Both the position numbers and the translations under genes were made by a program. Of a stretch of 64,000 bases of DNA, positions 1-64,000 are shown piece after piece. Under the pieces are notes generated by a model. The model was given only the letters and a program-made list of their open reading frames with translations, was not told where the DNA came from and searched no databases. The number at the start of each line of letters is the position of its first letter. The stretch's first letter is position 1. Origin of the DNA: Isoetes taiwanensis (Eukaryota; Streptophyta; Lycopodiopsida; Isoetales; Isoetaceae); contig JAJEKV010000005.1 of NCBI GenBank assembly GCA_021234155.1, positions 10,348,572 through 10,412,571 of the forward strand. The letters run 5' to 3'.

Positions 1-418
1 TATCCTCGATTGGAACAGAAACATCTTCTCCAACCCACACCCTCCACTTGTCAAACTTCTTTCTGGCCCACTGACTTACCCTAGGAGTCTTATCCTTACC
101 TCCTCCATCAATCTCCTTTAACATTCTCTCATCTAAGGCCATAAACTCTTGACATTCATCATCCTTCACGTCTGGTTCAACAAAATCCACGTGAAACCAG
201 TCTTCCTTTGCCACACTTTCCATTAAGTCCCTAACATCTTCATGATTTACAGTTTGCAACACAGAATCCAAGTCTGTTCCTGTTTCCTCCCTACAGAGGT
301 CTTCATCCGCATCAAGAATGGCAAAAGATGGTCTGCTAGCCCCAATGCAGTCAGTTAATACTGCATGCAAGCTAAGGAACAACAAAATAACAATGCAGAA
401 CCTGCTTTCCTCCACCAT
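1..418 (-). CDS. Unidentified gene, 5' coding part cut by window edge
   Basis: Reading the minus strand from the ATG at 418-416, a frame stays open for 139 codons to the window edge. The first ~27 residues look like a signal peptide or anchor: a charged start, then a hydrophobic run (CIVILLFLSLHAVL). The middle is acidic (Asp/Glu-rich), and the last part is basic and Trp-rich (SQWARKKFDKWRVWVG). Upstream there is a good 64-bp intron in the 5' UTR: donor GAAG|GTAATT after 494 and acceptor TTTCTTGCAG ending at 430. That supports a transcribed gene. The terminal W..F..W spacing faintly recalls the start of the Crypton-derived DUF3504 recombinase-like domain, but too little is present to claim it. 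The product is unknown; the reading frame itself is fairly secure. Confidence 0.55.
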   Translation of the reverse strand, partial: MVEESRFCIVILLFLSLHAVLTDCIGASRPSFAILDADEDLCREETGTDLDSVLQTVNHEDVRDLMESVAKEDWFHVDFVEPDVKDDECQEFMALDERMLKEIDGGGKDKTPRVSQWARKKFDKWRVWVGEDVSVPIED

Positions 419-429
419 ACTGTCCACAA

Positions 430-493
430 CTGCAAGAAATAAACAATAAAGTGTTAGAAATTTATAAAGAAAACTAAAAACTAAAAAAATTAC
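430..493 (-). other. 64-bp intron in 5' UTR of the left-edge gene
   Basis: On the minus strand the sequence reads AAG|GTAATTTTTTTAG at its 5' side and TTTATTTCTTGCAG at its 3' side, a good donor and acceptor. The next ATG is 11 bases into the following exon. The upstream frame does not continue openly through the splice, so the first exon is best taken as untranslated. Confidence 0.5.
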
Positions 494-499
494 CTTCGG

Positions 500-830: not shown

Positions 831-1432
831 CGAGGCGAGCGCCACAGCAGCGCCTCAAAAAAACGACTCCGAGCTGCCGGAGTTACGCCATCGCCAGAGC
901 TTGGATTCAAAAGAAACAGATGACAATTCATCAAAAAAATTCCACGTAGGCGACACGTCAGCGCCACCTCGGAAAAAAGCCCTCCCCGGTTGTTTACGTA
1001 AGCAAACCGCCACGTGTCGGAGTTTCCGTGGCGGAAACTCCTCCCCGTAGCGGTTTCCTATTACGTAAAAAAGAGAACAATCTTTTACAAACAAACATGA
1101 AAAAACAAGGACCATCTTCTAGAGGCAGAATGAAAAAGCAAACCATCTACAAACTACAAATTGCTAGATGAAAAGAAGCCTACGATTTAAGCAACCCTTC
1201 CACAAACTACAAACTATTAGATCAAAACAAGCCTACAATTTAAGCAACTCATCTAAAAAATCGAATAAGTAACTACTTAGAAACACAGGAAAGTAGGAAG
1301 ACAAAACACAAAAAATGGAACGCTCAAGAGGAAGGCCGATGATGAAAACCTAGAACTGATGAGATATGTAGCCTGTAAAAAAGTTCTGATGGAAAAAATA
1401 GACGTTCCAAAAAAGGCCCGTCTTCTCCAAGA

Positions 1433-2119
1433 ATGATGGTTCTATGTTGCCATAGAACCATTGCATTGTCGAATGTAATATGTCTTCTGAAAGAGACTTG
1501 TCTCGAGTCACAGGACTTAAATGACTTCCTAGCAGCGGCATTCCCTGATGTTTCAACAAATTATAGAAGTATGTCCTATTGGATGCAAAGGACAATCCTT
1601 ATGCCACTAACTGAGGATGTTGACGGAATAAACAAGAGGATGACAGAGTGGTTGCCTGCTACACCTATCGATTATTACAATGCTGATCGAGCTGTAAATG
1701 AGAATGATGCAGGTGTCTATCCTATTGAATTTTTCAATGCACAAACTACGAGTGGGATGTCTCCACAGAATGTTAGGATGATTATCATATTATTGAGGTC
1801 TATTTCTACATGTAAGGGACTCTACAATGGCACTCGTCTCATTACACGTTCATTGAGAAGGCGTGCTACCGATGCTAAGATTGTCGCTGGAAAAAATATC
1901 GGAAGCAGAGTGTTCATTTTTCGAATTCTTTCGGTGGCTAATAATGCAGAACTCACATTCCAGTTTGAGCGCATGCAATTTTCGTTGCGTTCAACTTTTT
2001 GTATGACAATCAACAAGTCCCAGGGCCAAAAAATGAAAATGGTTGGTTTGTATATGCCAAATCTAGTATTCAGTCATGGACAACTCTATGTAGCACTCTC
2101 GAGAGCTCAAGGAATCTAA
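1433..2119 (+). pseudogene. Helitron PIF1-like helicase, C-terminal part (unit 1)
   Basis: The 228-residue frame carries the C-terminal landmarks of Helitron RepHel helicases: [52 protein letters not shown] and [11 protein letters not shown] (helicase motifs V-VI). Complete RepHel proteins exceed 1300 residues, so the Rep nuclease and the helicase N-terminal motifs (Walker A/B) are missing. This is a truncated, inactive remnant. This copy keeps one frame through the whole region, whereas the sister copies at 6048 and 19043 are broken. It ends 68 bases before a Helitron-like 5' terminus at 2188. Confidence 0.88.
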
Positions 2120-2187
2120 GGCATAAAGGTTATCAAAGGATGGAGATGTTTTCCTAGATGGCGACAGAGCAAGATATACAACAAATA

Positions 2188-2245
2188 TCTTATATTATAA
2201 GTTTTTGGCGTAAGTATGTAATGCATCGCGCCCTAATTTGGGCAG
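2188..2245 (+). mobile_element. Helitron-like 5' terminus inside the composite (unit 1)
   Basis: A TC start preceded by A (A|TCTTATATTATAAG) is followed by GTAAGTATG and CGCGCCCTAA. It aligns with the proven Helitron start at 9415 (TCTTTATATTATAATG, then CACGCCCTAGAT). The same sequence stands at 6805 and 19797. No matching 3' hairpin plus CTRR was found in the unit, so the element is at best a 3'-truncated relative of the 9415 Helitron. Confidence 0.45.
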
Positions 2246-2470
2246 CCCAGATTTTATCATTGATTTGACGGTCGAGATCACGCCCTAAATCGGGGTTTTG
2301 CTTCCTCCCAATTCATATGGAAGGGAATTCTAAGGGGCTCAGTCCATGTTGTCTCTGCACTGCAAATAATCCTCAGTCCGTTATTCACATACAGTCGTAC
2401 TAGTATGTTGTAACCCCGCCAAGTTAAACTAACGGAAATTCTTCCTTCCGTAACCAGGTATTGGAAGGAG

Positions 2471-2625
2471 TAATTCTCATGAGGAAAAAATATTTCTTGA
2501 AATTTTGTGGTGGCCGCCAACTGACCTGATGGCACCGCTCGCTGTTTGTGGCCACAAATGGTGCCGGCAGGTTAGTTGGCGGCCACCACGAAATTTCAGT
2601 GAAATTTTTTTCTCACGAGAATTCT
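2471..2625. repeat. Foldback (hairpin) element, MITE-like, unit 1
   Basis: Arms 2499-2536 and 2560-2597 are inverted repeats matching at 34 of 38 positions around a 23-bp spacer. With gaps the pairing extends outward to about 2471 and 2625 (AATTCTCATGAGG facing CTCACGAGAATT). No convincing target-site duplication is visible. Sister copies have arms at 7120-7157/7181-7218 and 20112-20149/20173-20210. Reading frames on both strands here are by-products of the hairpin. Confidence 0.7.
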
Positions 2626-3231
2626 CTGACAAGATTTCAATCCGCTTGGAATTTCGCATGTTCTTGAGGTTTGATTTAGGTAGCAGATTAGAGCTACTCA
2701 TTTCTATAGCAATCTTTTCTTTGTTTTTGGTTTAGAAAGTTGTGATCGGTGCTTATTTGGCCAGATTTTGGTGTTCATTTTCCGGATTTGCTCATGTCAT
2801 GGTAGTAGAGGCTGGTGTAGGCCGGATACTTTGGGTTACAGATGCTAGAAATTAACAAATTGGCTGAATAGAAAATAGAAACAGAGATCTGAAGTTAAGA
2901 AATAGCGACCTAGGCAGTGCCATCCAAAAATTTGGCAGGCTAAACTGGTTCAAAAGGGCGAAATTTCAAGGTGGTTGAAATTTCGGCACGTGAATAGATT
3001 AGGATCAGCAAATGATTTTGTGCTAATGCAGTAGTTGCAAAATTTGGGTATCAGCCCTCGTGCCATGGACATCGCATTACGGGGATCTACCTGAGCCATC
3101 ACTAAAAATTTATCCCGCGGCTTATCAACATAGGGCTAAAAATTGCTCATGTGATTTACCTGTTACCTTCTGCAGAGTGGACAACCCACAGGTTTTCTTC
3201 TTGCTTCTCTTGTCAATGTTACTAAGGGTTC

Positions 3232-3447
3232 TGTTAGAAATCAGAAATATAGAAAACATAATGTGCTGATCAGAGGAAAACCGGTTGGACAGGGCCTAAC
3301 CCTGACCATGAATATATAGCATAAACTATGAAAGGATGTGCCTCTCTGTGTAAATTGATCTAGCCCAAGAGCCATCTCTAACTGTTGGTGACTCTTGATC
3401 AGAACCCTCTATTTGTACTGTGAGGATGTGAGATTATTCTCTCAACA
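3232..3447. mobile_element. 216-bp LTR-like block (TGTTAG...CTCAACA), unit 1
   Basis: The block begins TGTTAGAAATC and ends TTCTCTCAACA, so it has TG...CA ends and short TGTT/AACA inverted termini, with a TATATA box near 3312. Length is exactly 216 bp in all three units (also 7855-8070 and 20842-21057). Downstream an ATG opens MPSSAAIPATNPF, which could be a gag start. There is no recognisable tRNA primer-binding site beside it and no clear flanking duplication, so Copia-like solo LTR is a guess and the orientation is unsure. Confidence 0.35.
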
Positions 3448-3873
3448 CTCCTTGTTGATCTGACATTCGAACCAGAACAAGATCTTCAAATAACTTCCCC
3501 TCAAACTACAATGCCATCTTCTGCTGCTATACCTGCAACAAACCCCTTTGTAGGTCCTTCTAGACCAATTGGATTTGGACCAGACTTCTCTACAGGGATG
3601 AATTCTTGCGTAACAAACTTGAGTCTCTAACATACATCTTAAATGTACCTTCTTGGGCTTTATATCCTCCACTGCAAATTCTTCACAACATCTAAATAAC
3701 ACAAGCAAAAGATGCCTTCACCGACACCATATCCAGGATGCATGCGGGCACTGTTGGGGTGGTATAGGAGACTGTATACATGGTCATATATGGAGTGGTA
3801 TATACACAAGTATATACATACATATACCTATCGAGGAGACATACACGTACGCATTATGTATCTGGGCTATGAG

Positions 3874-5460
<1,587 letters not shown>

Positions 5461-6047
5461 GCCATCGCCAGAGCTTGGATTCAAAAGAAACAGACGACAA
5501 TTCATCAAAAAAATTCCACGTAGGCGACACGTCAGCGCCACCTCGGAAAAAAGCCCTCCCCCGGTTGTTTTACGTGGCGAACGACCGCGTGTCGGAGTTT
5601 TCAGTGGCGGAAACTTTTCGGCGGCGACGCGCTGAAAGTTTCGCCACGGAAACTCCTCCCCGTGGCGGTTTCCTATTACGTAAAAAAGAGAAAAATCTTT
5701 TACAAACAAACATGAAAAAACAAGGACCATCTTCTAGAGGCAGAATGAAAAAGCAAACCATCTACAAACTACAAATTGCTAGATGAAAAGAAGCCTACGA
5801 TTTAAGCAACCCTTCCACAAACTACAAACTATTAGATCAAAACAAGCCTACAATTTAAGCAACTCATCTAAAAAATCGAATAAGTAACTACTTAGAAACA
5901 CAGGAAAGTAGGAAGACAAAACACAAAAAATGGAACGCTCAAGAGGAAGGCCGATGATGAAAACCTAGAACTGATGAGATATATAGCCTGTAAAAAAGTT
6001 CTGATGGAAAAAATAGACGTTCCAAAAAAGGCCCGTCTTCTCCAAGA

Positions 6048-6736
6048 ATGATGGTTCTATGTTGCCATAGAACCATTGCATTGTCGAATGTAATATGTCT
6101 TCCGAAAGAGACTTGTCTCGAGTCACAGGACTTAAATGACTTCCTAGCAGCGACATTCCCTGATGTTTCAACAAATTATAGAAGTATGTCCTATTGGGTG
6201 CAAAGGACAATCCTTATGCCACTAACTGAGGATGTTGACGGAATAAACAAGAGGATGACAAAGTGGTTGCCTGCTACACCTATCGATTATTACAATGCTG
6301 ATCGAGCTATAAATGAGAATGATGCAGGTGTCTATCCTATTGAATTTTTCAATGCACAAACTACGAGTGGGATGTCTCCACAGAATGTTAGGATAATTAT
6401 CATATTGTTGAGGTCTATTTCTATATGTAAGGGACTCTACAATGGCACTCGTCTCATTACACGTTCATTGAGAAGGCGTGCTACCGATGCTGAGATTGTC
6501 CTTTAAAAAAAAATATCGGAAGCAGAGTGTTCATTTTTTGAATTCTTTCGGTGGCTAATAATGCAGAACTCATATTCCAGTTTGAGCGCATGCAATTTTC
6601 GTTGCGTTCAACTTTTTGTATGACAATCAACAAGTCCCAGGGCCAAAAAATGAAAATGGTTGGTTTGTATTTGCCAAATCTAGTATTCAGTCATGGACAA
6701 CTCTATGTAGCACTCTCGAGAGCTCAAGGAATCTAA
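6048..6736 (+). pseudogene. Helitron helicase C-terminal remnant (unit 2)
   Basis: Same fragment as at 1433 but in two frames (6048-6506 and 6551-6736). The break near 6500 replaces CGCTGG of unit 1 with CTTTAAA, and a TGA at ~6538 stands where unit 1 has CGA. Motifs MTINKSQGQ and [11 protein letters not shown] remain in the second part. The first break is at a CTG trinucleotide and may be a sequencing artefact; the TGA is shared with unit 3. Confidence 0.85.
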
Positions 6737-8498
6737 GGCATAAAGGTTATCAAAGGATGGAGATGTTTCCCTAGATGGCGGCAGAGCAAGATATACAACA
6801 AATATCTTATATTATAAGTTTTTGGCGTAAGTATGTAATGCATCGCGCCCTAATTTGGGCGGCCCAGATTTTATCTTTGATTTGACGGTCGAGATCACGC
6901 CCTAAATCGGGGTTTTGCTTCCTCCCAATTCATATGGAAGGGAATTCTAAGGGGCTCAGTCCATGTTGTCTCTGCACTGCAAATAATCCTCAGTCCGTTA
7001 TTCACATACAGGCTGTACTAGTATGTTGTAACCCCCCGCCAAGTTAAACTAACTGGAAATTCTTCCTTCCGTAACCAGGTATTGGAAGGAGTAATTCTCA
7101 TGAGGAAAAAATATTTCTTGAAATTTTGTGGTGGCCGCCAACTGACCTGATGGCACCGCTCGCTGTTTGTGGCCACAAATGGTGCCGGCAGGTTAGTTGG
7201 CGGCCACCACGAAATTTCAGTGAAATTTTTTTCTCACGAGAATTCTCTGACAAAATTTCAATCCGCTTGGAATTTCGCATGTTCTTGAGGTTTGATTTAG
7301 GTGGCAGATTAGAGCTACTCATTTCTATAGCAATCTTTTCTTTGTTTTCGGTTTAGGAAAGTTGTGATCGGTGCTTATTTGGCCAGATTTTGGTGTTCAT
7401 TTTCCGGATTTGCTCATGTCATGGCAGTAGAGGCTGGTGTAGGCCGGATACTTTGGGTTACAGATGCTAGAAATTAACAAATTGGCTGAATAGAAAATAG
7501 AAACAGAGATCTGAAGTTAAGAAATAGCGACCTAGGCAGTGCCATCCAAAAATTCGGCAGGCTAAACTGGTTCAAAAGGGCGAAATTTCAAGGTGGTTGA
7601 AATTTCGGCACGTGAATAGATTAGGAATCAGCAAATGATTTTGTGCTAATGCAGTAGTTGCAAAATTTGGGTTTCAGCCCTCGTGCCATGGACATCGCAT
7701 TACGGGGATCTACCTGAGCCATCACTAAAAATTTAGCCCGCGGCTTATCAACATAGGGCTAAAAATTGCTCATGTGATTTACCTGTTACCTTCTGCAGAG
7801 TGGACAACCCACAGGTTTTCTTCTTGCTTCTCTTGTCAATGTTACTAAGGGTTCTGTTAGAAATCAGAAATATAGAAAACATAATGTGCTGATCAGAGGA
7901 AAACCGGTTGGACAGGGCCTAACCCTGACCATGAATATATAGCATAAACTATGAAAGGATGTGCCTCTCTGTGTAAATTGATCTAGCCCAAGAGGCATCT
8001 CTAACTGTTGGTGACTCTTGATCAGAACCCTCTATTTGTACTGTGAGGATGTGAGATTATTCTCTCAACACTCCTTGTTGATCTGACATTCGAACCAGAA
8101 CAAGATCTTCAAATAACTTCCCCTCAAACTACAATGCCGTCTTCTGCTGCTATACCTGCAACAAACCCCTTTGTAGGTCCTTCTAGACCAATTGGATTTG
8201 GACCAAACTTCTCTACAGGGATGAATTCTTGCGTAACAAACTTGAGTCTCTAACATACATCTTAAATGTACCTTCTTGGGCTTTATATCCTCCACTGCAA
8301 ATTCTTCACAACATCTAAATAATACAAGCAAAAGATGCCTTCACCGACACCATATCCAGGATGCATGCGGCACCTTTGTTGGGGTGGTATAGGAGATCAG
8401 ATACATGGTCGATATGGAGTGGTATATACACAAGTATATACATACATATACCTATCGAGGAGACATACACGTACGCATTATGTATCTGGGCTATGAGT

Positions 8499-9414
<916 letters not shown>

Positions 9415-9500
9415 TCTTTATATTATAATGTTTTAGTGCAAGTAATGGACCACGCCCTAGATCCGACAGTGAGGATTTGATTTTCCGAAGGGACGGTGGG

Positions 9501-11920: not shown

Positions 11921-12172
11921 ATGCCAGAAGAAGCATCAGAGGACTTGCAACAGAAGGTACAGACTTTGGTGTTAGCTAAATTGGACTTCACAACACCAGT
12001 TGTTGTCACTGCTGCACATAGGGTTGGAGCATTGCATCCCCACCACCCGCGCATAGTGAAATTTACAGTGCAAAATTTGAGTACTAAAATGGATATCCTC
12101 AAGCAGGCCAAGCAATTGAAAGGGACATCTCTCTATCTGGATTTTGATCTTACTAAGTCCCAACTTGATTAG
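11921..12172 (+). pseudogene. LINE ORF1-like fragment (L1 ORF1p-type domain)
   Basis: An 83-residue frame begins MPEEASED and contains AHRVGALHPHHPRIVKFTV and AKQLKGTSLYLDFDL. This follows the order of the C-terminal region of L1-type ORF1 proteins (G.PE...ED, then HRVG, R.IIVKF, K..KGT), RNA-binding chaperones that coat LINE RNA. The N-terminal coiled coil is missing. It lies just upstream of the ORF2 remains in the same orientation. Confidence 0.55.
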
Positions 12173-12639
12173 CCGACGCTTGAGAATTTGCAAAAGGTCC
12201 ATGACATTCAAAAGAATGGTGGTAAAAGCCGCACCGATTCGTGGAAAATTACATTATTTTTACACCATCACATGCAACCTTTGGCGGCGTCTTTCATCAT
12301 GCTCGGGCCACTCATATTTGCTGGTGTTAAAGTCCATTCTCCCATTTCCCATGCACATACCAATGCCGCAAATGCGCCGTGTTGTTCCATCTTACGCACC
12401 CACCACATCTTCTTACGCTCAAGGCCATTCCTCTCATGATGTTGCTAATGGTACCCTTGATGCTGCTGGCTGGCCGGCGATGTTTTCGCTCTTCTCACGT
12501 TACCTGCCGCCTCTATTGCTCCAACCTCCTCGATTCGACCGATCATACCTCAAATGTACCTTCCTAGGAAATGTGCCTTCGGTTGGTGTCACGGAATTGT
12601 CGAGGTTTTCCCGGCGTAAAGGTGATGGCTTGAATCCCA

Positions 12640-15600
12640 TTGCAAAAGATATGGATATCATTACGCTCATGGAAGCGTGGGAGCATTCAGCCAAAGCGGC
12701 TACCTCATTTTGACATGGGCTATCAATTCTTTTCATTATTTAATGAATGTCATGGGCAACGAGGTTGCGGTGGAGTTGCTTGCTATTTCAAGGATGCCCT
12801 TTCTCCATATATCACGCTTCATAAAGCTGATAGATATAATCGCTACATGTGGATCAAACTTCATTGCCACAATAGTAGTACCATTTTTGTTCTTTGCCTG
12901 TTACTTCCCACCTACATCATCACCTTTTTATGATGAATATGATGTAATTCGCAGATGATCCTTATGGTGATCTTTATGATGACATTGCTCAATTCAAACG
13001 GTTGGGGCATGTTATTCTTCTTGGTGATTTCAATGCTCGCGCCTTTGCTGAAATGCAAGTCGCTCAACTCATACTTGAGGATGTTCGTGACCCTTTATGG
13101 ATGTGCGCTAATGATCTGATCTTTCCACGTTCATCGCCGATGCTAATAAACCCGTCTCAACATTTGGAAGGGAGCTCATCCGGTTTGTGTGAAGTCTTTG
13201 AGATGGTACTTTGTAATGGCTTAGAGCAATGGCCACACTCTAAAAGGTATTACATGCAGCGAGGATAGGCGAGGGGTGGTGGTACTAGTGTTGTTGATTA
13301 TGTCATTTCCCAAGTGCAAGCCTTGGATCTCATTTCAGATTTTCGAATTGGCACAAGGCATAGAGATGAGGAGATAAAATCTGATCACTATCCACTTTAT
13401 TTGTCATTAAAGTGGCGACTTCCACCTCTTCAACCCATTGCTATCGGGGCTCTCGTCCCTCGCATTTTTGACTTATTCTAGATCTTTTGAATATGAGCGG
13501 ACATTAGCTCTGGCGGCTTGCGGTATTTTGGATTACCCAACTCTTCAAGAGCGTAATCGGCATTTCGCGTCGATACTTTGCTTACTGGCGTCTCTTGCTT
13601 TGGTACACGCGCCACGGTGTTGCTCATCTTTGGTAGGAAATCCTTTCCTAGAAATGCACAGTTTGATGAAGGCGCAAGCGGCTTAAAAACAATTGCGAAT
13701 GATAGTTGAGGCGGATCTGCGACATAATGCCATTCATAATTATAAGTCCGTTTTGAAACGCAAGAAGGCATGCTTTGTTCCGAAAGCACCGAAGCAAATG
13801 TTTGAATTATCTTTCATTGAGCCTCGGACCTTACGGCGCAAAATATTATATCGACCACCTCCTACCCTTGGACATATTTCTATGCGGCAATGGGATGGCG
13901 ATTGGTCCACTTATATGATCATCCAGGGTCCTTAATTGCAGTGCCTCCTTTGGTAGGTGATATTCTTCAATTCACGAGGAGGAGGAAGTCAAAGAAGGAT
14001 TGCGGCATCTATCTAATGGCAAGTCTCCTCGATCTTCAAGGTTTGCAAGCGAATTGCTTAAATGGGGGTCCGCTATTGCTTCCAATCATCACTACTCTTT
14101 TAAATCAAGCTTTGCAAGAAGGCTTGCCGAAACTTGGTTTTGTCGGTAAGGTCGTACCAATTTACAAAGCGGTGATAAGCATGACCCTTCTAATTATCGC
14201 ATGATCATGGTAAGTTCCATATTTTCAAAGCTCTTAGCCGGTCTTCTTGAGAAGCGAGTTGACATCATGGGCGAGAACATCTTGGTATGCGTCTTTGTAG
14301 GACAAGGCGGGGCTTTCGTCCATGCCATTCTACAATAGACCATATTTTCACATTGCGCATGCTTATTGAACATAGTCGAAGTTTGAAACAAGACCTCTAT
14401 ATATGCTTTGTAGATTTTACTTCTGCTTTTGATACTGATTACCCGCTGAGCTTCTTTTGGCGGCTTATGTGCACTTGGGGTTCCACAAGATCTTCAAAAT
14501 GCAGTTTATCGGCTCTATGAAAGGGTTTTTGCTAAATTTCCAAAGATCGGTACTCAAATCACTAGCAATATTGGAGTTCGACAGGGTTGCCCTTTATCTC
14601 CTACACTTTTTGGCTTGTACATTGATCAATTGGAAGAATGGCTTGATAATCATGGCGGCGGAGGTCCACATTTGGCACACTATATCATTAGGCAACTTAT
14701 GTATGCTGATGATGTTTCACTTCCCGCACATACATTTGCTAGTATCAAAGCAACATTTACATGCTCTGCACAGTTTCTGTGAGAACACAGGTCTGCGTGT
14801 TAATCTGCAAAAGACCAAGCTTTTGGTAGTTCAATCTTCTCGTCACAATGTTCCCCCTATGCACTATGATAGCCGCGAAGTTGAAGTTGTAGATAGCTAC
14901 AAGTATCTTGGTGTAGAATTCTGTAAGAACACACTCTGGGAACAGTGTATTACCAAGCGGGTGGCTGCTGGATGGAGAGCACTCTATGCAATGCAAAACA
15001 ATTGTTTTCGCGCAGAAATTCATGATTGGCCACGGAAAGCCCACTTGTTTCGGGCTTTGGTAGAGCCTGTTTTACTGTATGGTTCTGAAGTGTGGGGGCC
15101 TGCCATTAGTGCTAGTGCTTGGGAGAGCTTGGAGCGGGTGCAAAAGTCCTTTCTCACTTACAGCCTTGGAGTTAAAACAACGGTGCCCTATGCTATTCTT
15201 TTACAAGAGACAGGTTTTTGGCCTCTTCAACATTCTGCCATGAAGCGCCATCTCCACTATATCTGCAAGGTGCACCACATGGACGATGTTAGATATCCCT
15301 GTTCTTGCACTTGCCATGGTGAATCTCCTCGGCGTTTGAACGATGTTGGAAAGAGCATTGCACTACATGGTTTGCCCGTTGAAACGTGTAAAGCGAGAAC
15401 CGCCGATGCTTGCCAGTTCTGATCCTGAGCTTTTGCAACAATATCTTAATGGTCGTTTTTCTCAAAAGATATGGGGCCTTGATTACTTTGGCCCAAGTGA
15501 AAACCGGTCATTATCATGCACACATAAATCCCACTTTGGCACCAGGGCCCCAAGCTTATTTGCTTGCTTCATTGTCCAGGAACAAGCTTGTAGCTATTGC

Positions 15601-21488: not shown

Positions 21489-25275
<3,787 letters not shown>

Positions 25276-51196: not shown

Positions 51197-51726
51197 GAAT
51201 CTCTGTTCAGAATGTCACTTGCAAATAATGCTAGATTTTAAGAAATCGAAGTCTCTTGCAAAATGCGGCGAGCCGAAATCCCTTGGAAACAATGCCAGAT
51301 TTTAGAGAACTCTCGGTGTCTGAATCCTGAAGAAAAAGAAAGCAGTTAAGATGCATAACGTTTGGATAAAATATGCACAATATAATTTGCATCAAGGACA
51401 GAAACTTGAGTACCCAGATATTAGATGAGAAACATAAGTAAACTAAGTAAATGATTGCTGCAAATCTAAAGCTCAAAATTGAAATGAGAATCTGGGGTCC
51501 AATCAATTCCAATAAGGAAAGCAGAAGCTTGAAAGGACGCTGAGCAGCCAAACAAAATGATGGTATATCCTGGTACCTGCAAATGCACATGTTTGCGCTA
51601 AGGATCACCCCGCAAACACATGACAGACCATTTTGTGCCAAGCAGAACCAGTGTAAGAAACATACCTAAGCAATAGATCCGTAGATCCTTGGTGTTGCAG
51701 GTCATTGGTAAATAGATCAAGAGCTA

Positions 51727-52411
51727 TTGAACTCTTCAACAAAACCTTTTGAAAATGGATTTAAGGCATGCTGCTTCTGCATGCATAAAAACAAAATGAG
51801 AACATACTCAGCATGTGGACTGCCTAACAAAAGTATTGCATTTGTTGGAGATTCTGTGAGAAGGCAGCAATTCAGGTCTGCGATGCAGGGACATGTGCAT
51901 GCAAGAAAGGGGGTTTTTATAAGCGGTGCCAACCCTCTATGAAGAAGATATTGGTCAGATGTGAATTTGATTTCCATGATGATACAAAACATGATGATAC
52001 AAAGGTTGGGCATATAGATTCAAAGCCACTAATACAACTATCTTATTTCATTGGTTAGCAAATCTTTGCAAGATTTAGTTCTACAATGCCACCAATCCTC
52101 GTGCAGGATCAGCATTACATATAGATTACCCTCCTCTCTTCCTAGGTGCCAACATGCATAAATTTAATATTATTGTTCTCAATACAGGGCATCACTGGAA
52201 TCCCAATAAGCTAAGATTAAACAAGTGGGACATTTATGTTGGTGGTGCTAAGATGACCAAAGGACATCTGAGAATAGAAGATGCACATAAGCAGATTGTT
52301 ACTAATCTAGCAGGTTGGCTGAATAAAGAGATGAGAAAAAGAGAAGATTTAGCAGTGTTCATGAGGTCCTTATCTCTTAGACATTATATGAATGGGGAGA
52401 CAGAAGACTAA
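51727..52411 (+). pseudogene. TBL: TBL fragment (copy T3, outside the array)
   Basis: Same exons as T1 within a 2.2-kb homologous segment (51197-53391). It keeps FVGDSVRRQQF, then a ~50-bp foreign stretch (around 51880-51935) replaces the exon end; 51950-52075 also has small rearrangements. The TAG of T1 and T2 is present, followed by the intact ALHIDYPP, VLNTGHHW and SLSLRHYMNGE. It is therefore no better than the array copies and cannot itself be an intact donor. Confidence 0.85.
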
Positions 52412-53081
52412 TCGAATCCAGAGAAAATTTGAATCCATACAAAACTCTATTAAAAAGGCCGTCCAATTCATAGAAAACCCTGTCCTTGCAACAAAAAACG
52501 GGTACAGAGGGCACAAAAGAAGCATTTACCTGTCCGGAGATCGGTTGGGCAGAAATAAAGCATGATGGTTCAAAACTGGGTTTAGGTTCTGATCACGGTG
52601 AGACCGAAAGACATTATTTGCCAGAGCTCCAAGTTCTAGCTCCAACCTCCATGAAAGCTTCAGCTCCAAGCTGCAAATGAAAGCTCCAGCACCAACCTCA
52701 TTACGATTTTCCAAAAACGCCCTAAAACCCTAAGACATATTGTGCAAGTGGCCAAATAACCCTAATGTAAATCCATGACTGCCTCAATACCACGAATGGA
52801 AGCACCATAGCAGCAAGATTTTGATCGCAGGAAATGATGTTTTCCTTCGTTTCACCGAATAGAAAGAAAACAAGGTTCTAGAACTACGATGCGGTTGTAG
52901 TTAGTTATTTTGGCAGTTCCTATTTATCTTCTTGGTCGCTCCTTCTTTGGCATCAGCTCTCGTAGCATCTCCTTGCCTTCTTTCTACAGCTGGTCCCAAG
53001 GCTTTTTACGGTTGGGCCTTTGCCGTGCTTCCTGGTCCGTTCCTGGTCCCTGTTAGTCTATAGGTTTTCTAGGTATCCACG

Positions 53082-53450
53082 TTGTCGGCTATGGCCCCAA
53101 AAAATGGTTCGTTAAAGTTTAGGAAGAGGCATGCAGGCGACACTGCTTCAGAGCAGACTCCCGCATGGCTTGGAGCCATGGAAGGAAGGCTGGAAGCCAA
53201 GCTAAACGGTCTGAATGACCTTATGGAGAGCAAGTTGCAAGCTAGGCTGGACGATTTGATTGGCACAAAGGCTGAGGTTATTGTGGCCTTGGAGTCCAAG
53301 ATTTCGGCCCTTCAAGAGCAAATCCAGCAGAAGACCAGCAGAGCGAGAGCCCCTCTCCTAAAGTTTCATGAGAATATAAGGAAGCACAATTTCATTATAA
53401 TGGGAAAATTTTTAGTAAACTGGAATTTTTTTATTATGGGGGTTGTATAG
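53082..53450 (+). pseudogene. Coiled-coil fragment (copy T3), 3' replaced
   Basis: Identical in frame to 36142-36441 (MSAMAPKNGSLKFRKRHAG... to LLKFHENIRK). At 53391 homology stops and unrelated AT-rich sequence (AAGCACAATTTCATTATAATG) takes over, so this copy is cut off. Confidence 0.5.
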
Positions 53451-55090: not shown

Positions 55091-55140
55091 AAAGTGAGAA
55101 GTGAAAACAAGGTAAAAGAATTTATAGCTCTTAAATCCAA

Positions 55141-55255
55141 TAATGTTGAAGTATAATACCAATAATGTTGAAGTATAATACCAATAATGCCGACGATAAT
55201 ACCAATAATGCTCACGTATAATACCAATAATGCTGAAGTATTATACCAATAATTC
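55141..55255. repeat. 22-bp tandem repeat, five units
   Basis: Five copies of TAATG(T/C)TGAAGTATAATACCAA split as TAATGTTGAAG and TATAATACCAA. Units three and four read GCCGACGA and GCTCACGTA where the others have TGAAGTA. Confidence 0.85.
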
Positions 55256-55797: not shown

Positions 55798-58700
55798 CTA
55801 TGTCCCCCCACATGTCAACAATGTATTTTGGAATCTGAAGAGTCTTGGTCTTTTGCCATTTGCATCCCATGCATAATGTATGGCATCTAACTTCTCATAC
55901 CTTGATGGATCTGATGGATTGGGTCGCCAACGTTTAGTTAAGCAACCTGTATAGTCACGACCAACAGGCATCCACCATGATACATAAATGTGACCATAAT
56001 TGGTAGACTCTGGATCTAGGATGGCATCTTCTTCTGTAAAGCCCAACCACGTTGGAGTTTCATCGATCTCAGGTGGGACTAAAACAAACATACCTTCGTA
56101 ACATGTGCATGAGGATCGAACTCATCCATAGGCAACACTGGACGCCCATCTGCTGGCCCACAATATGTAGGCAAAGGTCTTACAAGCACAGCGGCTTCAT
56201 CGACCTCTGGAGTAAATGCAGCTTGTAGAGGTTCTTGCCTTGTACGCAACCAAAAGTTATCATTTTGAGGTCGTCCTGGAGATACATCTTCCAAACACAA
56301 AAGAATCTCGTTCCAGTAATCCATAGTTGCTTTGTCTTTGTCGTTGCAAACACACTATCTTCTTGATTTTTTGCGAAGGAATTCCATAATGCTATGTACT
56401 TGCGTCTTTGTCGCGAGCGAGGAGATCTTTCAATGTCTTCCTTGGAGGGATATTTTTAGGCACCCTCGTTGGTAGCGTTGGCTCACCATTTTCATCCTCC
56501 TTCCACATTCTTATTCCATTTTACGGAATCCACTCTTTATGGGTTGGCCGCATCTTATATTGCATAATGGGCCATTTCCCATCCATTTTAAATCGAATAG
56601 CAATGGCTCGGTATGGGCCTGTTAGACGTTGGCCCTTATATGGGGATATATCCCTTGACAAAGCCTTTCCAACCGGAACTTCATCCACAAAATATGGAGC
56701 GAGGAGACTTTGCATTGCACTTGCTAAACAAGTAAAAGCAACTTCGAAGGCAAAGTTAGAGCATCCGATGAACTCATTAACGTCGAAAAGTTCCCAAACA
56801 ATGCATCAATATCGTCATGAGTGTGCCCAACCATCATGAAGCCAACCTGAATCTCATCGAATACCTTAAGCCATGTCAAATAAAGAGGTAGGAGAACACA
56901 TATCTATTTTTATTTTGACCCGATGCATTATCCAAGCTGTAAGTAGAGATTTCGAGGAAGAGGATTGAAGCCTTCTAAGTTGGCACTAGAAGATGAAGGC
57001 ATCTTCTCTTGTATGCCGCACTAGCTTATGTTGCGTTGGTCGAGTATCTTTTAGGGCTTGCATCAATTTGCAATCTGTAGTTTACGCTTCCACACAAATC
57101 ACCACACTTGTCTTCTTAGGCAACTCAAGATAGTGTAGGATCCTAGAAAGTGATCCAACATGAAAGTTTGAGTCATCCTTCCAAAGATCAAGAGAGAAAT
57201 GGCCATAAGCCCGTCCACCATGACCATGTGTCAATGCTCTGTCAAAGTTTGCTCTTCAAGCGATCTCCTCTCCAAACAGACTTTGCGAGATGGTGACTTC
57301 TTGGTGTGAGTGTTATGACCTGATCCATCTTATCATGTATTATGCAGAGGTGACTTTCTGGCGAACGATGTGATAATGCACGCCAATGCCAATATTGACT
57401 CCTACATGAACGTTGTTCCAACATATGTGCCCGTTGAATTGAAAGGTTGCGCCTCTCCCTTATATCTTTTGTTCTTTCCAATTTTACGCTTGATGACTAC
57501 ACATATGTTACACTTGGAGAATCTTTGTATTTTTGCTATCGACGCCCTGGAAACTCTTTCTTCCAAATATTGTAAAAAGAGGGCAAGGTTACACTCTTTC
57601 CTGTCAATTCTTCCACCACGGCGCCCACCTCCTTATGTATGCTCTTCTTATTAAGGATGGAAGGAAGTTTGCGAACATTCTCCCTTATATCATCCTTTCC
57701 TTTTTTGCTTCTATGTGGAATGCTCTCGCATTCTCACTAATGAAGGTATCAAGCACACTTTTCGTAGCTAGTGTCACGGATCTAGGCTTCTTAGAGCACA
57801 GATTACCATGCTCTCGCGTTTTTTCCACCTAACTTTCGAACCTCTTCCTCCAACTATAAAGCGTGGATCGAGCAACTCCTAAAGCCCGCGCCATGCGAGT
57901 GTGACCTCCACTCCCACAGACCACTACTTTTCGCCTCCGAGCGCCTGTATAAGTTACACTCAACACATCAAAAACAAAGCGTAATCCACGGCTTTGCTTG
58001 ATTGAGAATAAAATTCTTTTCTTAAGGCACATACTTGCTTTGTCGGCGGGTTTTTGACACATTCGTCCCTTGCGGCATGTTGATTTTAGATCACTCTTAA
58101 TTGCCTTGAAGCGCACATCCTCTCCTCCTTGCCATCCCCTTTGGTTCCCTCCCGACCCTCTTCACATATGTATATTTCCTTTTCCTCTTGAATTGCTTCT
58201 CAACATCAGCTTCCAAGCACTCAACTTCTAAATCATCATGTTCGAGGCAAAGAAGAGCTTGTAAATGTTGTGAAACTGTCCTACCATCATGAAGCAAAAG
58301 CAAAGCATGGGTCTCCCGGGTTACTAGGATCATTAGCTATAGGCCTCAAAGACAAGCATGACATGACTGATATTTTGGTTTCCCGTTGGATCTATTATGT
58401 TACCCACTGAAAGCCCGACCTTTGATACACCCAAGAACTCATCGTCTATAGCATCCTGAGGATCACTAAAGACTATATTCGCCTCCGAATATTTAGATCC
58501 GGTGCAGGAGTGAAGAATGTAGCATGGCAAACCTAGTAGATGTTGCGGAGTAGTAGGATCATCTCATCTTCGGGCTTAAACAACACGAGACCAAGACGAG
58601 CAGCTAGATTCTCATGACCTCCAATCTCCTCTACTATCTCGTCTTCTTCATTTGTTGCTGTGTTGCTTGGTTCACCACAGTGAGCAGTGAAACTGATGTC

Positions 58701-58856
58701 CGGCGGGCTACTGACAGATGGACTACTAGATGAATCCTCTTGTGAAGAGGGCAAATTGAGGGATCTCGAAGACGTATCTTCACTTGAGGGCCACTCATTT
58801 GGTTTTACATCCCTCTTAGGCCCTTTGAATGAATGTGCCCTCTTTTGCTTCACCAA
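55798..58856 (-). pseudogene. Decayed TE-like gene with DUF7869-type motifs
   Basis: Minus-strand pieces in consistent order. A Ser-rich N-terminus (58856-58533) is followed by KSTCRKGRMC and an HTH-like GGHTRMARALGVARSTLYSW (57905-57840). Then come IIHDKMDQVI (~57340), GHGGRAYGHFSLDLW and DDSNFHVGSLSRIL (57240-57115). LDNASGQNKNRYVF (~56935-56892) and GFMMVGHTHDDIDALFG (~56847-56795) follow. The C-terminus has PYKGQRLTGPYRAIAI (~56660), IYVSWWMPVGRDYTGC and KRWRPNPSD (56091-55798). The D(N)...ENKNRY and GHTH.DID pair is the signature, from memory, of a eukaryotic family listed as DUF7869, found in TE-like genes. Many frame changes, so inactive. The activity of the family is not known to me. 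Confidence 0.6.
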
Positions 58857-59099
58857 TGTTATGCACCCCTCCCAGGCCCGGAAGCTCTGTCGATGGGATC
58901 ACGGACTCCGTGACCTCAATTGCTACATTTGAAGGATCTATTTCCTTCCCATGAAGAGTGGTTCTATTCAAAATATGTCCCCGGGCAACAATTGTCCCTC
59001 CGACGAATAGGTTGTACAGGGGAAAATTAAACCTGTTTCAATCAAGCAAGGCGACACTTTTCAGAACATATGAAATAGAGGAAAAATAAGCAAAAAATA

Positions 59100-59345
59100 A
59101 GCGAAAATGGCGCTATTTAGTACAAAAGTATAAATTTTGGTCCAAATTTGGAGCTAAATGGCGCCATGGCGCCATTTGGTCGAAATGGTGTTTGGATCAA
59201 ATGGCGCCATGGCGACATTTGATCCAAATTCACACCTATGGCACATTCATAGGTGTGAATTTGGATCAAATGGCGCTATGGCCATTTGATCCAAACACCA
59301 TTTTCGATAAATGGCGCCATGGCGCCATTTGATCCAACACCATTT
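59100..59345. repeat. Cluster of GGCGCC palindromes
   Basis: Repeated AAATGGCGCCATGGCGCC and reverse halves, plus a larger inverted repeat around GATCCAAATTCACACCTATG / CATAGGTGTGAATTTGGATC (59220-59267). Non-coding. Related to the clusters at 36.8, 41.8, 60.7 and 63.1 kb. 59350-60560 shows only basic low-complexity frames and a very GC-rich stretch (60395-60450). Confidence 0.85.
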
Positions 59346-60567
59346 CCACCAAATGGCTTAACTCCATCACAAAATCTACACGAGGTGCCTATGTTATGCA
59401 TTCTTGCTCCCATTGTTGTATATGTGTCAATAAGAGCAGGCATGCATAACATGGGCACCCCATGCCAACTTTGCAATTGAAACCAAGGTTACGTGTCCTA
59501 GCAAAGCATTAATGTCGGCATTTGAACACTCTATACACACATGGCTGCAATAGAGCGTAATTTATACGTAAAATGATGGACTTACTTGATATTAGATAGA
59601 TCCATAGTGGTATGTCCCGGAGCAAGAGATAGATAGAACGGGGAAAATGAAGCTGATCCCAAAGCAGATATATTGGCGGAAGAATGCGCCAAGAAGAGCG
59701 CCAAGAAGAAAGCGCCAAGAAAGATTCGAGAAGAAGAAGGAGGATTCGCCAAGAAGAAAGCGCCAAGAATCACACAGGATTTCTCAGAGCGAAGAAGAAA
59801 GCGCCGACAAAGACGCATAGCGCTTTGCAAAGTTTCGCCTTACCGAGAAAAGAAGCCGCCTTTATGCGCGCGAAATTGACCTAACAACAAAGGGATTCGA
59901 AGCTCAACGAACTGCATCTAAAACGCCTGGGCCGTGGCATGGTCGCATTAAGTGGGAGCACGGGCAAGAAGAGGAGCTTTAAAGGCAAAGTACAATTTTC
60001 AAACGGACGCATTCAAATTTGATTGTGGCAGTCAAATTTCAATATACGGGGCGGGAATTTTGACTTTTATGTTAATTAAGCAGCGGCGGAATTTTGAATT
60101 TTATGTTCAAATTTGGGCTAAGGGGCGAGGGGAAATATTCAATTTCAAAATTAATTGTGGCGCATGGAATACCGGACGCCACGGGCATGGACGGGAGGGC
60201 GGCCGGGGCGGCATAGCGGCCGGACTGCTGACGCGCACGGCGTTGGATCCGCTGAATTTCCGCAAGGGCGTATAATTTGCGTGGGCGGGCATGGGCGCTG
60301 GACCCGCGGGCATGGCGCTGGGCAATGATGGGCCCTAGTTGGCGCTGTTTTAAAAGCTTCTCATTCGCTTTATTCGTTTTCGATTCGGCTCAGCCTCGAC
60401 CTTAGCGCGGCGCCGGCGCTTCCGCGGCGCCCTGGCGCCCGGCGCCCCTAAAGCAACCCTTTTTCATCCTTTTTTTTCAGTGATTTCTGGCGCCATTTCC
60501 CCGCAGTTCACCGCCTCAACACATCTAGATACACACCGGTTTTCGGACCAAATTCAAGGCGCGCGAA

Positions 60568-63500
60568 ATGGAAATGGACAGTGCGGAGCTCAACAAAATG
60601 TGGAGGCGAAGCAAAGCTTACCTCAAGGGACAGGTATGTCGTCTACTTGCATTGTTTGTTTGGGCTAAATGGCGCCACCGCGCTATTTAGATGCCTGGTA
60701 ACCACTTTAGGGTCTTATAGTTGACAAATGGCGCCATGGCGCCATTTGGATGATTGAGTGCACTTTAGGAGTCTTAGCTTACTTTAGGATGCCTGGTAGC
60801 TTACCATAGGGTCTTGTTGTTGGCAAATGGCGCCATGGCGCCATTTGATGTGTATTAGCATACATTTGGGACTTGTTGTTGGCAAATGGCGCCATGGCGC
60901 CATTTGATGTGTATTAGCTTACCATAGGGCCTTGTTGTTGGCAAATGGCGCCATGGCGCCATTTGATGTCTATTAGCATACATTGGGAACTTGTTGTTTG
61001 CCTAGTCATCCGGTGCATGTTCGCTGTTTCATTTGTGGTATCTCCTCACGAATCGAGGGTGCCTCCCACCAGATCCGATCCACTCTCCTTGAACCATCTT
61101 CCTCGAATATTGCGAGAAGGGGAGTGGTTTGACTGGGTGGAGGCCTCTTCGACCAAACGTTAGGGATAGGCATACGATCGGCCTCCGTGCTTATGCATGC
61201 GGATCGATACAAATGGCGCCCGGCGCCATTTGCCAACCACAACCTATTGTGCACTGCTTGTTCAAACCATTTATCGATGCCTCTTTGTTGCCGATGCCTC
61301 TTTGTTGCAGGCTATCTTACGTGATGAAACACAATTTCAATCCGACCCGCACTATGATCTTTGATAGACGAATGTACTGGTGCATGGAAGTAATGCGGGT
61401 GAGCCCCTCACCGCTACAGGCTCTAAAGGAGACTGCAGAAGAGAGCTCTGCCTCCTTATAAGGGGAGACAGACACGTAAAATTGTGCGGCATTTACCGGC
61501 CCGGGTATCTTGGTCCAAATGAAGTTGGTTGCCAAGAGCGGTCGCGAGGATTGGATCCGGGTGGTCTGTGAAGATACTTTGAAGCAGAGAATAATTGTGT
61601 ACTATGTGGATTTGGAAGTTTTATGATCCCATCAGAATGTCCGCTAGCATTGCAAATGTATTTGGTTCTGAAGAAGCAAGGTAATTTGCCGCCGCCATGA
61701 CAACAGACTTTGAAGAAGCCGACATCAAAGGTCCACAAGAAATCTTGAGGGGCTTTATGATTCTTCGCAATCGGATGAACGAGTCGAAAAACTCGCCTTC
61801 ATTCGTTGTCAAGGCAATAGCCCAGCAGAAACTACCCGCCATTGTGGACACGGCCTGGCTAAAAACAGTGAGCAAGAAGAAGACAAGACAACCTAGGGAT
61901 ACACTGCAGCCGACAAAGACTCCTCATCTTCATCGAGGATGTCCAGGAACCGGAGGAAGGAAAAAGGCGGCAAGAGGAAAGTTAAGAGAAAGGATCACAA
62001 AGATCCAGATATGGAAAAGAAGGAAAAGAAACAATCTAAAGAAAAGGAAGAGAAGGAAAAGGAAGAGAAGGAAAAGGAAGAGAAGGAAAAGAAAGAGAAG
62101 GAAAAGAAGGAGAAGGAAGATAAAGAAAAGAGGGAAAAGAAGGAAAAGAAAAGGGCAAGGAAAGAAAAGGATAGGGAAGGCAAAGGGGGCGAAGGAAGGA
62201 AAGGCAACACAGAAACGGAGGGAAAGGAAGTGGAGACAGAGAGGAAACGGATGGGAAAAAAAAAGAAGAAGCACAGTAGGAGACCCTTGAGAAGGAGAGG
62301 ACACCAAAAAACAAAGGAGAGCCTCCGGACTCCAAGTCTATTTGGAAGTCCTAGAAGTGGTGGTGAACCTCCGAGCCCAAGGCATAGCGAGGATCCCGCG
62401 GACACACCGCCAAAAGGGTCCCCATTAAGAAGCTAGAGCCAAAGAAGCTCACATTAAGAATAGCTCAAAGACTTGCTAGAGGTGCCCGCAAATCTTCGGG
62501 TGGAAAGGTCAAGAGGAAAAGACGGCAGAGAATACACCGCAAAAAATTTACGATCACCTAAGATCTGTTTCCTCTCGGTGTCACATTCATTAAAAAAATA
62601 GACGCGTGTTCAAATTATATCAAGGACCAGCAAATCGACATCTAGACCAAGGAATATGGAGCACGTCAAAACTTTGGTGGAGTCCTTTTCAGAGAGACCC
62701 ACATCCAGTCTTCACTCCGTGATGTGATTCCATTCAATCCCCTCACAAACAAACCGGTCCCTTGGAAAACCGAGGATGACCTCATGGGGATGCACTATTA
62801 TATAGTGAATGGTAATCATTGATTATGGCTGCTCAACTTGTATGTAGAAGACTCGGCACACCAAAGTCCCAAGAGCAAATGTCAAAGATTTATCTTCAAC
62901 GGAATTGCCGAGAGTGTTGTGCGCGCGATCAAGCGAACAGGAATGCCTGCGGCTTCGGTTAGAAGTCAATGATATCAACTGCGAAGACTATTTTCAAAGA
63001 GCCATTCATTGATAACATAACCCCACTGGCAGCAATATGCTCTATGCGGGAAGCCCGATCCATCGGGGACGCGGGCAATCTCGCGAGAACCATACAAGGT
63101 ACATGTTTTAATTTTCGAAGATTATGAAATGGCGCCGTGGCGCCATTTTTGTTCCAAACGGCGCCGGGCGCCATTTCCTCACCAAACGGCGCCGCGGCGC
63201 CATTTCCTCACCAAATGGCGCCCGCGCGCCATTTGCTCATTAAATGTTCAAGTCTAACTTCTTGTTGTTTCCAGCGTTATCCGGCTCGGCTGAAGTTACC
63301 ATCGTGGTAAGCATCCTAAAGATTTCAACCGGTGGGTCTTCATGCGAGAGGATATTTTTCGATTATTCGTGTCCCTATGGAACTTGTGGAAATCTTGCAA
63401 GCTAAAAGACAACAAGGGACAAACTATTACATGTGAATCGGGCAAAAGAATCGACTACGCCGGTCGGACCTACCCGAGGTGCATGAGGGGTATGGACTAC

Positions 63501-63570
63501 TTAAGACCGTCGGGTTACATTCGTGAAGTCTTTGGATGGGAAGACCTTCGTCAAGGTCACTAGTGATTAT
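60568..63570 (+). CDS. Unidentified multi-exon plus-strand gene, frames interrupted
   Basis: First exon 60568-60633 (MEMDSAELNKMWRRSKAYLK; donor CAG|GTATGT). Further protein-like pieces, all plus strand: LREGEWFDWVEASSTKR (~61110-61160); after acceptor TTTGTTGCAG (61310) MKHNFNPTRTMIFDRRMYWC; GILVQMKLVAKSGREDWIRV (~61505-61625); IPSECPLALQMYLVLKKQG (~61628-61685); MTTDFEEADIKGPQEILRGF (61697); FNPLTNKPVPWKTEDDLMGM and FIFNGIAESVVRAIKRTG (~62730-62960). Donor AAG|GTACATG at ~63100 opens a palindrome-bearing intron ending TTTCCAG (~63272). Stops and shifts between the pieces mean either a pseudogene or sequence errors. No family recognised. Confidence 0.35.
60725..60965. repeat. Four perfect 24-bp palindromes, three on a 59-bp period
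   Basis: Identical 24-bp palindromes (CAAATGGCGCC, AT, GGCGCCATTTG in outline) lie at 60725-60748, 60824-60847, 60883-60906 and 60942-60965. The last three are spaced exactly 59 bp, with linkers containing TTGTTGTTGG and GATGT.TATTAGC. They sit in the presumed first intron of the 60568 gene. Confidence 0.95.
61939..62436 (+). CDS. Lys/Glu-rich low-complexity frame
   Basis: 165 codons, mostly K/E/R from a 15-bp purine repeat (AAGGAAGAGAAGGAA type, 62035-62165). It ends with a Ser/Pro-rich tail (SLFGSPRSGGEPPSPRHSED). It may be a charged linker of the surrounding gene; on its own it is weak evidence for a protein. Confidence 0.25.
   Translation: MSRNRRKEKGGKRKVKRKDHKDPDMEKKEKKQSKEKEEKEKEEKEKEEKEKKEKEKKEKEDKEKREKKEKKRARKEKDREGKGGEGRKGNTETEGKEVETERKRMGKKKKKHSRRPLRRRGHQKTKESLRTPSLFGSPRSGGEPPSPRHSEDPADTPPKGSPLRS
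63120..63240. repeat. Four GGCGCC palindromes in a presumed intron
   Basis: GAAATGGCGCCGTGGCGCC, AAACGGCGCCGGGCGCC, AAACGGCGCCGCGGCGCC and AAATGGCGCCCGCGCGCC occur ~30 bp apart, separated by ATTTCCTCACC-like linkers. The centres differ while the arms are kept. 63571-64000 shows no supportable gene. Confidence 0.85.
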
Positions 63571-64000
63571 CTGGTAAGCAATTCTTCAAGGCAAGGGCAA
63601 AGACACTAAGATCCATATCTTTCTTGAAGAAGGAGATTTTTGCATCGTGAAGGATAATTTTCGAGGAAGTTCAAGTCCTTCATCGATCAAGATCGGGCAG
63701 GTGTCGGGCCGAGGATACCGACCTGATTTCCATGGCCACCTTGCATAGTAAGTGGGTTGAAACCGAGAGTGGGCAAGGAAGGCATTTTCGTAACGTGCCA
63801 CCGCCTTTGGCAAGATTCATACGCAATGCTTTGTCTTGAAGAGAGAGGATCTTGAAGACTTCCGTTCGCGGTTGAACTAATGCATGACAAAGGGACAAGT
63901 TGTTTGCACTCTGTACCGGTATCCTTGATTGCCCCGGACACTAGAGGCATATTTCCAATGTGGGACAAAACCACACTAACAAATTTCTTTATACCGTTGT

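Follow-up and report, generated by a model that had tools for sequence, protein, structure and literature searches.

CAG/CTG-centred differences between transposon-like repeats of Isoetes taiwanensis as probable methylation-linked nanopore consensus errors

We analysed a 64,000 nucleotide long stretch of the Isoetes taiwanensis genome (assembly GCA_021234155.1, contig JAJEKV010000005.1, positions 10,348,572 to 10,412,571 of the forward strand; hereafter the window, to whose numbering all coordinates refer), in which differences between copies of transposon-like repeats are enriched at the trinucleotide CAG and its complement CTG. Judged from the sequences, the CTG/CAG differences in damaged patches of these repeats are very probably methylation-linked nanopore consensus errors rather than mutations. 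Repeats in the window were located by self-comparison. Two main families were found, namely family A (copies at 883-5317, 5457-9415 and 18453-22940) and a 5-kb tandem unit consisting of B1 (32232-34269, 37224-39264 and 42228-44407) and B2 (34260-36444, 39255-41446 and 51170-53384). Three copies per family allowed differences to be polarised by majority, and any run of columns with one copy departing from the other two was counted as an event, giving 129 events in B1, 43 in B2 and 87 in the family A alignment (A1). The mostly clean copy at 32232-36444, with an open frame of 348 amino acids at 33036-34082 on the minus strand, served as internal reference. A Pfam search of ten frames returned MULE, RVT_1 and helicase matches, the sole one above its curated cut-off being RVT_1 at 22430-23278; these matches were used only to label the repeats as transposon-like.

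Altered sites were counted in 32 strand-collapsed trinucleotide classes and compared with 500 circular shifts as null; three-state columns (26 in B1, 4 in B2, 14 in A1) were excluded from the differences, and events of more than 12 consensus bases were omitted from the masks. CAG/CTG was the most enriched class in B1 and B2 (64 of 357 sites against 19.2 expected, z 10.8, reached in 0 of 500 shifts), which bears out an earlier sequence-only reading that copy differences cluster at CTG/CAG. In family A, CAG/CTG shared the top rank with CCG/CGG at a z of 5.0 (21 of 294 CAG/CTG sites against 7.8 expected, 0 of 500). When multi-base and indel events alone were considered, the numbers were 50 of 357 against 14.2 in B and 10 of 294 against 3.0 in A, while the control class CAC/CTC stayed at expectation (33 of 768 against 36.2 and 7 of 762 against 7.9, respectively). 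ATG/CAT was altered at 7 of 519 sites, with 29.6 expected. Within 100-bp bins selected for at least three events, 28 of 38 CAG and 24 of 38 CTG were altered (52 of 76 together), as were 25 of 88 CCG/CGG. Errors are thus concentrated at a modification motif, as in modification-mediated nanopore errors, with CAG/CTG ranking first in B and CG contexts also enriched. An effect of a Dcm-trained caller sparing CCWGG was considered and dropped, given 3 of 15 altered CCWGG sites versus 67 of 342 other CAG/CTG sites (Fisher p 1; small n).

The kind of change is likewise distinctive. Multi-base changes or indels make up 116 of 172 B events, and 41 of 58, 31 of 51 and 26 of 29 events in the damaged copies 37224, 42228 and 39255. 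Among the altered cells of A and B together, 20 of 43 CTG had become NCG (TCG 7, ACG 5, CCG 5, GCG 3) and 10 of 43 CAG had become CGG; the products of deamination were found a few times each (TTG 2, CTA 3, TAG 2, CAA 3). CG was gained in 32 and lost in 2 of the 57 B events touching CAG/CTG. For the 46 multi-base B events at CAG/CTG, 32 CG were counted versus 18.0 ± 3.6 for random replacements (0 of 2000), and the corresponding numbers for five further contexts ranged from 83 to 1826 of 2000. This test omitted 6 A events and 38 B events, 32 of the latter for ambiguous flanks, 4 as ambiguous and 2 as long. Three-base replacements hold CG in 36 of 67 cases at CAG/CTG, compared to 35 of 323 at non-CG trinucleotides away from CAG/CTG (Fisher 1e-13) and 46 of 207 within 3 bases of CAG/CTG. 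The direction is reversed in the 77 B events away from a majority CAG/CTG (CG lost 21, gained 8), which in our reading partly reflects places where two damaged copies make up the majority. Differences in family A are mostly ordinary point changes, and transitions account for 46 of its 87 events.

Single sites can show three readings across copies (CTGAGG/CCGAGG/ACGAGG; AACTGGG/AACCGGG/AACGGG). Recurrence at the same locus and survival of the consensus, both marks of modification-mediated errors, are therefore seen here, at the assembly level only. All six examples named in the sequence-only reading were present: GGCTGG>AATTTGG and GGTCTGAA>GGTGCGAA between 36242-36300 and 41239-41300; AGCAGTTCAGG>AGCGATTCGGG between 32925 and both other copies (37915 and 42920); ACCTGC>ACACGC plus neighbouring changes between 3530 and 21133; and ACTGG>ACGG between 7036 and 2428. 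The local duplicate at 46640-46740 (46640/46710), whose second copy has CTG>ACG and CTG>CG, shows CTCTGGGG>CTCACGGGG and ATCTGCC>ATCGCC, and two units of the 22-bp repeats at 55137-55253 (named as 55185) are damaged (GCTGAAGT>GCCGACGAT and GCTCACGT).

Differences are unevenly spread along several of the B copies. In successive 100-bp bins of the third tandem copy, the event counts are 1, 0, 0, 0, 1, 0, then 5, 5, 4, 4, 2, 5, 7, 5, 4, 2, and finally 0, 1, 0, 4, 1, so that the abrupt clean-to-damaged switch reported near 42850 is real. Clustering was assessed as the number of 2000 uniform placements reaching the observed value, which was 0 for copy 32232, 4 for 42228, 22 for 51170, 30 for 39255, 128 for 37224 and 1806 for 34260 (one event only); the family A copies were without clear clustering (814, 75 and 199). 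Damaged patches, with approximate limits for the first two, lie at 37224-38080 and 38340-39120 in the second tandem copy of the 5-kb MULE-like unit, at 40530-41440 in the same copy (against two largely agreeing references, 35530-36444 and 52475-53384), at 42850-43900 in the third tandem copy, and at 51870-52010 in the dispersed copy 51170-53384. At 33365-33690, all three tandem copies differ mutually at several shared sites. Family A holds damaged patches at 5570-5670 (copy 5457-9415) and 21130-21210 (copy 18453-22940; the example at 21133), and three-way readings among its three copies at 3740-3795, with counterparts near 8370-8415 and 21360-21405. The longest minus-strand frame shrinks with damage, from 348 amino acids in copy 32232 to 128 in 37224 and 150 in 42228, which agrees with the earlier suggestion that pseudogene-like lesions may be artefacts.

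The damage is also visible in composition. The observed/expected ratio (O/E) of CAG/CTG is 0.43 and 0.40 in damaged copies, the latter value belonging to 42850-43900, at a CG O/E of 0.93 and 1.05, compared to 0.89 for CAG/CTG and 0.74 for CG in clean homologues, and 0.93 and 0.58, respectively, in the background. A depletion of CG alongside CHG (H, any base except G), as expected of 5-methylcytosine (5mC) deamination, is therefore absent from the damaged patches (0.93 and 1.05 versus 0.74 in clean homologues). Three further stretches, at 12.0-14.5, 56.4-59.7 and 62.4-64.0 kb, have a CAG/CTG O/E of 0.38, 0.35 and 0.39, values which are not independent since the stretches were picked for low CAG/CTG, and a CG O/E of 0.83, 0.69 and 0.97, which is largely independent of that choice; deamination products are near expectation in all three (0.94 to 1.17). 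By its composition alone, 62400-64000 is probably damaged. With intervals at the 54-kb tandem array and at a single AG tract set aside, a CAG O/E below 0.45 was found in 33 of 297 tested 1200-bp intervals of the window, the next class being CCG with 4 of 203. Elsewhere in the genome, we chose 20 places on 10 contigs by round coordinates rather than randomly, and dropped two which were all N; the 18 readable places gave 91 of 810 CAG-low intervals, followed by CCG with 13 of 350. CG O/E was at least 0.6 in 51 of these 91, and the remaining 40 may represent real decay. Within the window, 49500-50500 and 25500-26400 combine a CAG/CTG O/E of 0.41 and 0.26 with a CG O/E of 0.28 and 0.32. Their TAG/CTA frequency is 34.0 and 33.3 per kb versus 26.1 in the background, and CAA/TTG is raised only in 49500-50500. 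Unlike the damaged patches, these two stretches may be products of real deamination.

Further copies of the unit were sought in the whole assembly (1,658,258,908 bases, 1110 contigs). At least 41 matches to the start of B1 were found, three of them in the window, and 20 of the other 38 were retrieved, resulting in a 23-copy alignment that mixes in true subfamily differences. The fraction of altered CAG/CTG ranges from 0.07 to 0.75 across the 23 copies. Deamination of 5mC in plant transposons affects the same sites, giving TTG, CTA, TAG or CAA and not NCG or CGG. In three heavily altered copies (at least 0.5; 37224 and 42228 of the window plus L026 from a different contig), CG is present at 52 of 114 altered sites and 18 sites are of the deamination type, whereas in 16 light copies (below 0.25) CG is held by 22 of 142 and the deamination type accounts for 83; four intermediate copies have 23 and 21 of 67, respectively. 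Since the spectra of heavy and light copies differ, real CHG decay and CG-forming rewrites are distinct processes, both present here, mainly in different copies. C>T changes are in excess at CHG over CHH in family A (11 of 744 versus 10 of 3465 site-copies, p 3e-4) and in B (6 of 960 versus 2 of 3822, p 0.001), and the excess in family A is as would be expected of germline CHG methylation. Some of the CTG/CAG differences, particularly those of clean copies, stem from real deamination. Multi-base events in the 23-copy alignment altered 136 of 1343 CAG/CTG sites against 87.7 expected (z 5.4).

Two depleted high-copy repeats were compared directly with copies elsewhere. The first is the part of a LINE (long interspersed nuclear element) at 12000-14500 on the plus strand, which has a broken coding frame and whose sampled copies differ at hotspots within 12600-13015. 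Of 467 first-look candidates for the LINE at 12.6 kb, 40 were scored, which gave no fewer than 39 further matches at 92-95% identity. Four copies from other contigs, aligned with the window copy over 402 columns, form 17 variable clusters separated by long identical stretches, 8 of them holding CAG/CTG in some copy and 9 without; one hotspot has five alleles in five copies. At positions with CAG/CTG in at least one copy, 21 of 40 cells deviate, of which 9 hold CG and 7 are, in their letters, of the deamination type. A tblastn search places one frame change near 14.75 kb, the frame being open at 14439-15422 and continuing in another frame from 15392; from the open reading frame pieces, we read further frame changes upstream. 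The second repeat, at 56400-59700 (aligned over about 55.8-59.5 kb), was set against a single other copy. Of the 88 events between them, not counting one that was longer, 45 fall on CAG/CTG and 27 exchange CAG/CTG for CG. For these exchanges the chance level of 0.07 is too low, since it considers a single allele, that of a CAG/CTG-poor copy, whereas both alleles enter the observed count. A third pair, 8.5-12 kb against a C1070 copy, was dropped as it gave no alignment outside the core (identity 0.376).

The probable history of the assembly fits a base-calling origin. According to the available text of the I. taiwanensis genome paper (PMC8566536), which reports 1658.30 Mb in 204 scaffolds and 909 contigs, Oxford Nanopore Technologies (ONT) LSK109 libraries were read on flow cell 9.4.1 and called with Guppy 3.1 flip-flop, assembled with miniasm, and corrected with racon and with pilon using 2 x 150 bp reads, with two LR_Gapcloser rounds and pilon between them; its main text contains no instance of "methylat". 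The window probably derives from this native-DNA R9.4.1 assembly. Plant DNA carries 5mC at CpG, CHG and CHH (PMC8514461, in part), and heavily methylated sites disturb signal processing (PMC9650304, in part). We propose that the native DNA carried 5mC at CHG, here CAG/CTG, symmetric on both strands and mainly in transposons, so that the altered sites would be methylated. An R9.4.1 caller ignorant of methyl-C at CHG, presumably knowing methyl-C mainly as CpG, would then report a nearby sequence with methyl-C followed by G (CTG>NCG, CAG>CGG), often gaining or dropping one base. Being systematic, the error would survive read consensus. Illumina polishing would have cleared it wherever short-read placement succeeded, and failure of placement would explain why errors stayed in patches of near-identical or high-copy repeats. 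The earlier suggestion that short-read polishing fails in repeats agrees with a review statement that repeats lack reliable short-read mapping (PMC10095996, in part) and with a small comparison of copy number, the damaged stretches at 12.6 and 57.3 kb having 467 and 757 first-look candidates, compared to 35, 69 and 115 for three others; it gains nothing from the nearness of the closest copy, which is not significantly related to damage (Spearman -0.28, p 0.20, n 23).

This last result, together with several others, weighs against the explanation by methyl-C errors at CHG or narrows its reach. The clean stretch 32232-33000 has 231 first-look candidates. CG-containing classes are enriched as well, in B (CCG z 3.8, CGC 3.4, ACG 3.3) and in family A (CCG z 5.0, ACG 3.2), and in multi-base events of the 23-copy alignment CCG/CGG (166 of 1454 against 95.2, z 7.5) and CGC/GCG (z 6.5) outrank CAG/CTG; the difference set thus also includes real decay of CG or miscalls at CG. 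The CG excess is weak when compared with shuffled letters of the same replacement (39 versus 34.0, 63 of 1000), and at CAG without the one-step CGG, replacements holding CG number 4 of 22 (p 0.051). In family A, neither the CG gain (15 gained, 10 lost, of 81 events) nor the CG in multi-base events at CAG/CTG (5 versus 2.7, 129 of 2000, n 7) is significant. The claim that the errors lie at CTG/CAG consequently holds for the top class in B but has to be qualified, as CG contexts are altered too and some CTG/CAG differences are real mutations. Nevertheless, the CAG/CTG context, the CpG-forming multi-base and indel changes, the variable misreads per site and the probable origin of the assembly support the proposed methylation-linked base-calling error.

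If the differences were instead real mutations, with 5mC at CHG and CG deaminated to T during the decay of old copies, the C>T excess at CHG, the deamination-type majority in the light copies and the look of 49.5-50.5 and 25.5-26.4 kb would be accounted for. As an explanation of the damaged patches this is very improbable, since there the deamination type is rare, events are mostly multi-base or indel, and CG, expected to decay as well, is not depleted. Gene conversion or recombination with diverged relatives could produce a mosaic of clean and different patches, and both the abruptness of the patches and the number of genomic matches would suit it. However, sequence from a diverged donor should show differences in every kind of context, and the copies are nearly identical between altered sites: 114 of 2166 columns differ between the B2 copies 34260 and 39255, among them only three isolated substitutions, all at CAG/CTG. 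We consider this origin scarcely credible.

Other alternatives retain a nanopore origin. The final one of the two LR_Gapcloser rounds may have left unpolished sequence, the pilon step having come between them (PMC8566536). Single-read filler should err in all contexts, though, and the concentration at CAG/CTG together with the deficit at ATG/CAT makes unpolished gap filling improbable. A non-exclusive variant of the preferred explanation holds that patches follow which CHG sites are methylated, not where polishing failed. It would fit the altered fraction below 0.25 in 16 of 23 copies, the lack of correlation with closest-copy nearness (the near-identical L017, L024 and L028 span 0.07 to 0.33), the heavy copy L026 without a near sibling among the 23, and the clean state of 32232-33000. 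On the other hand, damaged stretches have more first-look candidates than the three others, and each of the two heavily damaged copies in the window has near-identical siblings that are cleaner; we regard the variant as rather unlikely, while keeping it in view.

Methylation-linked consensus error is a known kind of artefact, here with a CHG-to-CG spectrum. In bacteria, Dcm sites (CCAGG/CCTGG) accounted for about 70% of the consensus errors of then-current ONT callers, and signal-level polishing removed such errors only in part (Wick et al., 2019; PMC6591954, in part). As there, untrained 5mC in a C-A/T-G context leads to systematic consensus errors; unlike that 5-base bacterial motif, CAG/CTG is affected here with any flank and in patches, and CCWGG is neither spared nor preferred. 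The available text on Modpolish (Chiou et al., 2023; PMC10687267) states that unlearned modifications generally yield systematic errors, and the GCAGC/GCTGG motifs it describes in Listeria have CAG/CTG cores. Its case is a lineage-specific bacterial modification whose mechanism the authors left open, in contrast to what is probably eukaryotic CHG methylation of transposons. Closer in material, Ferguson et al. (2022; PMC9749173) found generic ONT models less accurate on native plant DNA and linked this to methylation; the available text treats read accuracy rather than residual errors in repeats and contains no CHG, CTG or CAG. Our literature searches, which were narrow, found no paper describing the rewriting of CHG methyl-C as CpG and no prior report of CHG-to-CG miscalls in plant assemblies.

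The first two tandem copies share 91.3% identity in the B1 part and 94.7% in the B2 part. Outside CAG/CTG, they differ by isolated substitutions in 5 of 2057 and 0 of 2166 columns, respectively, and a stricter count in the 23-copy alignment gave 5 of 909 clean columns (0.55%). Most of the divergence between these two copies is probably false, and the real difference between tandem copies that align at 91-95% may lie below about 0.6%. We tentatively suggest, short of affirming it, that the errors form a readable methylation footprint, in which CHG-to-CG swaps mark methylated CHG sites copy by copy without reads, and that a large share of transposon divergence is false and hides a recent burst of near-identical copies. 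If so, the divergence of, e.g., the LINE at 92-95% identity with its 467 first-look candidates would be largely false. Provided that the window derives from the published assembly, this plant reference probably carries systematic false differences in repeats, which bias estimates of element age, the splitting of families, the calling of pseudogenes and the CG content there. CAG/CTG depletion with normal CG and CHG-to-CG swaps between copies could be used, with no need of reads, to screen further R9 plant assemblies made from native DNA; real CHG deamination is separable by its spectrum.

Some observations on the repeats themselves were made in passing. Several stretches of the window have a second copy some 23.6-23.7 kb further downstream on the contig (the B1 unit at 98%, 47000-47700 at 97%, 49600-50300 at 100%), which may reflect a large tandem duplication, or else a retained haplotype, involving 42228-64000 and sequence past the end of the window. 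In family A, 1379-2116 contains a helicase-like frame with weak UvrD/Pif1 matches below curated cut-offs, possibly a Helitron. Six (AG)n tracts of about 120-160 bp lie at 3877-4017, 8501-8631, 21492-21613, 24287-24439, 27026-27184 and 28524-28672, several of them adjoining reverse-transcriptase-like frames. Finally, palindromic GGCGCCATGGCGCC-like units form several tandem blocks at 59147-63239.

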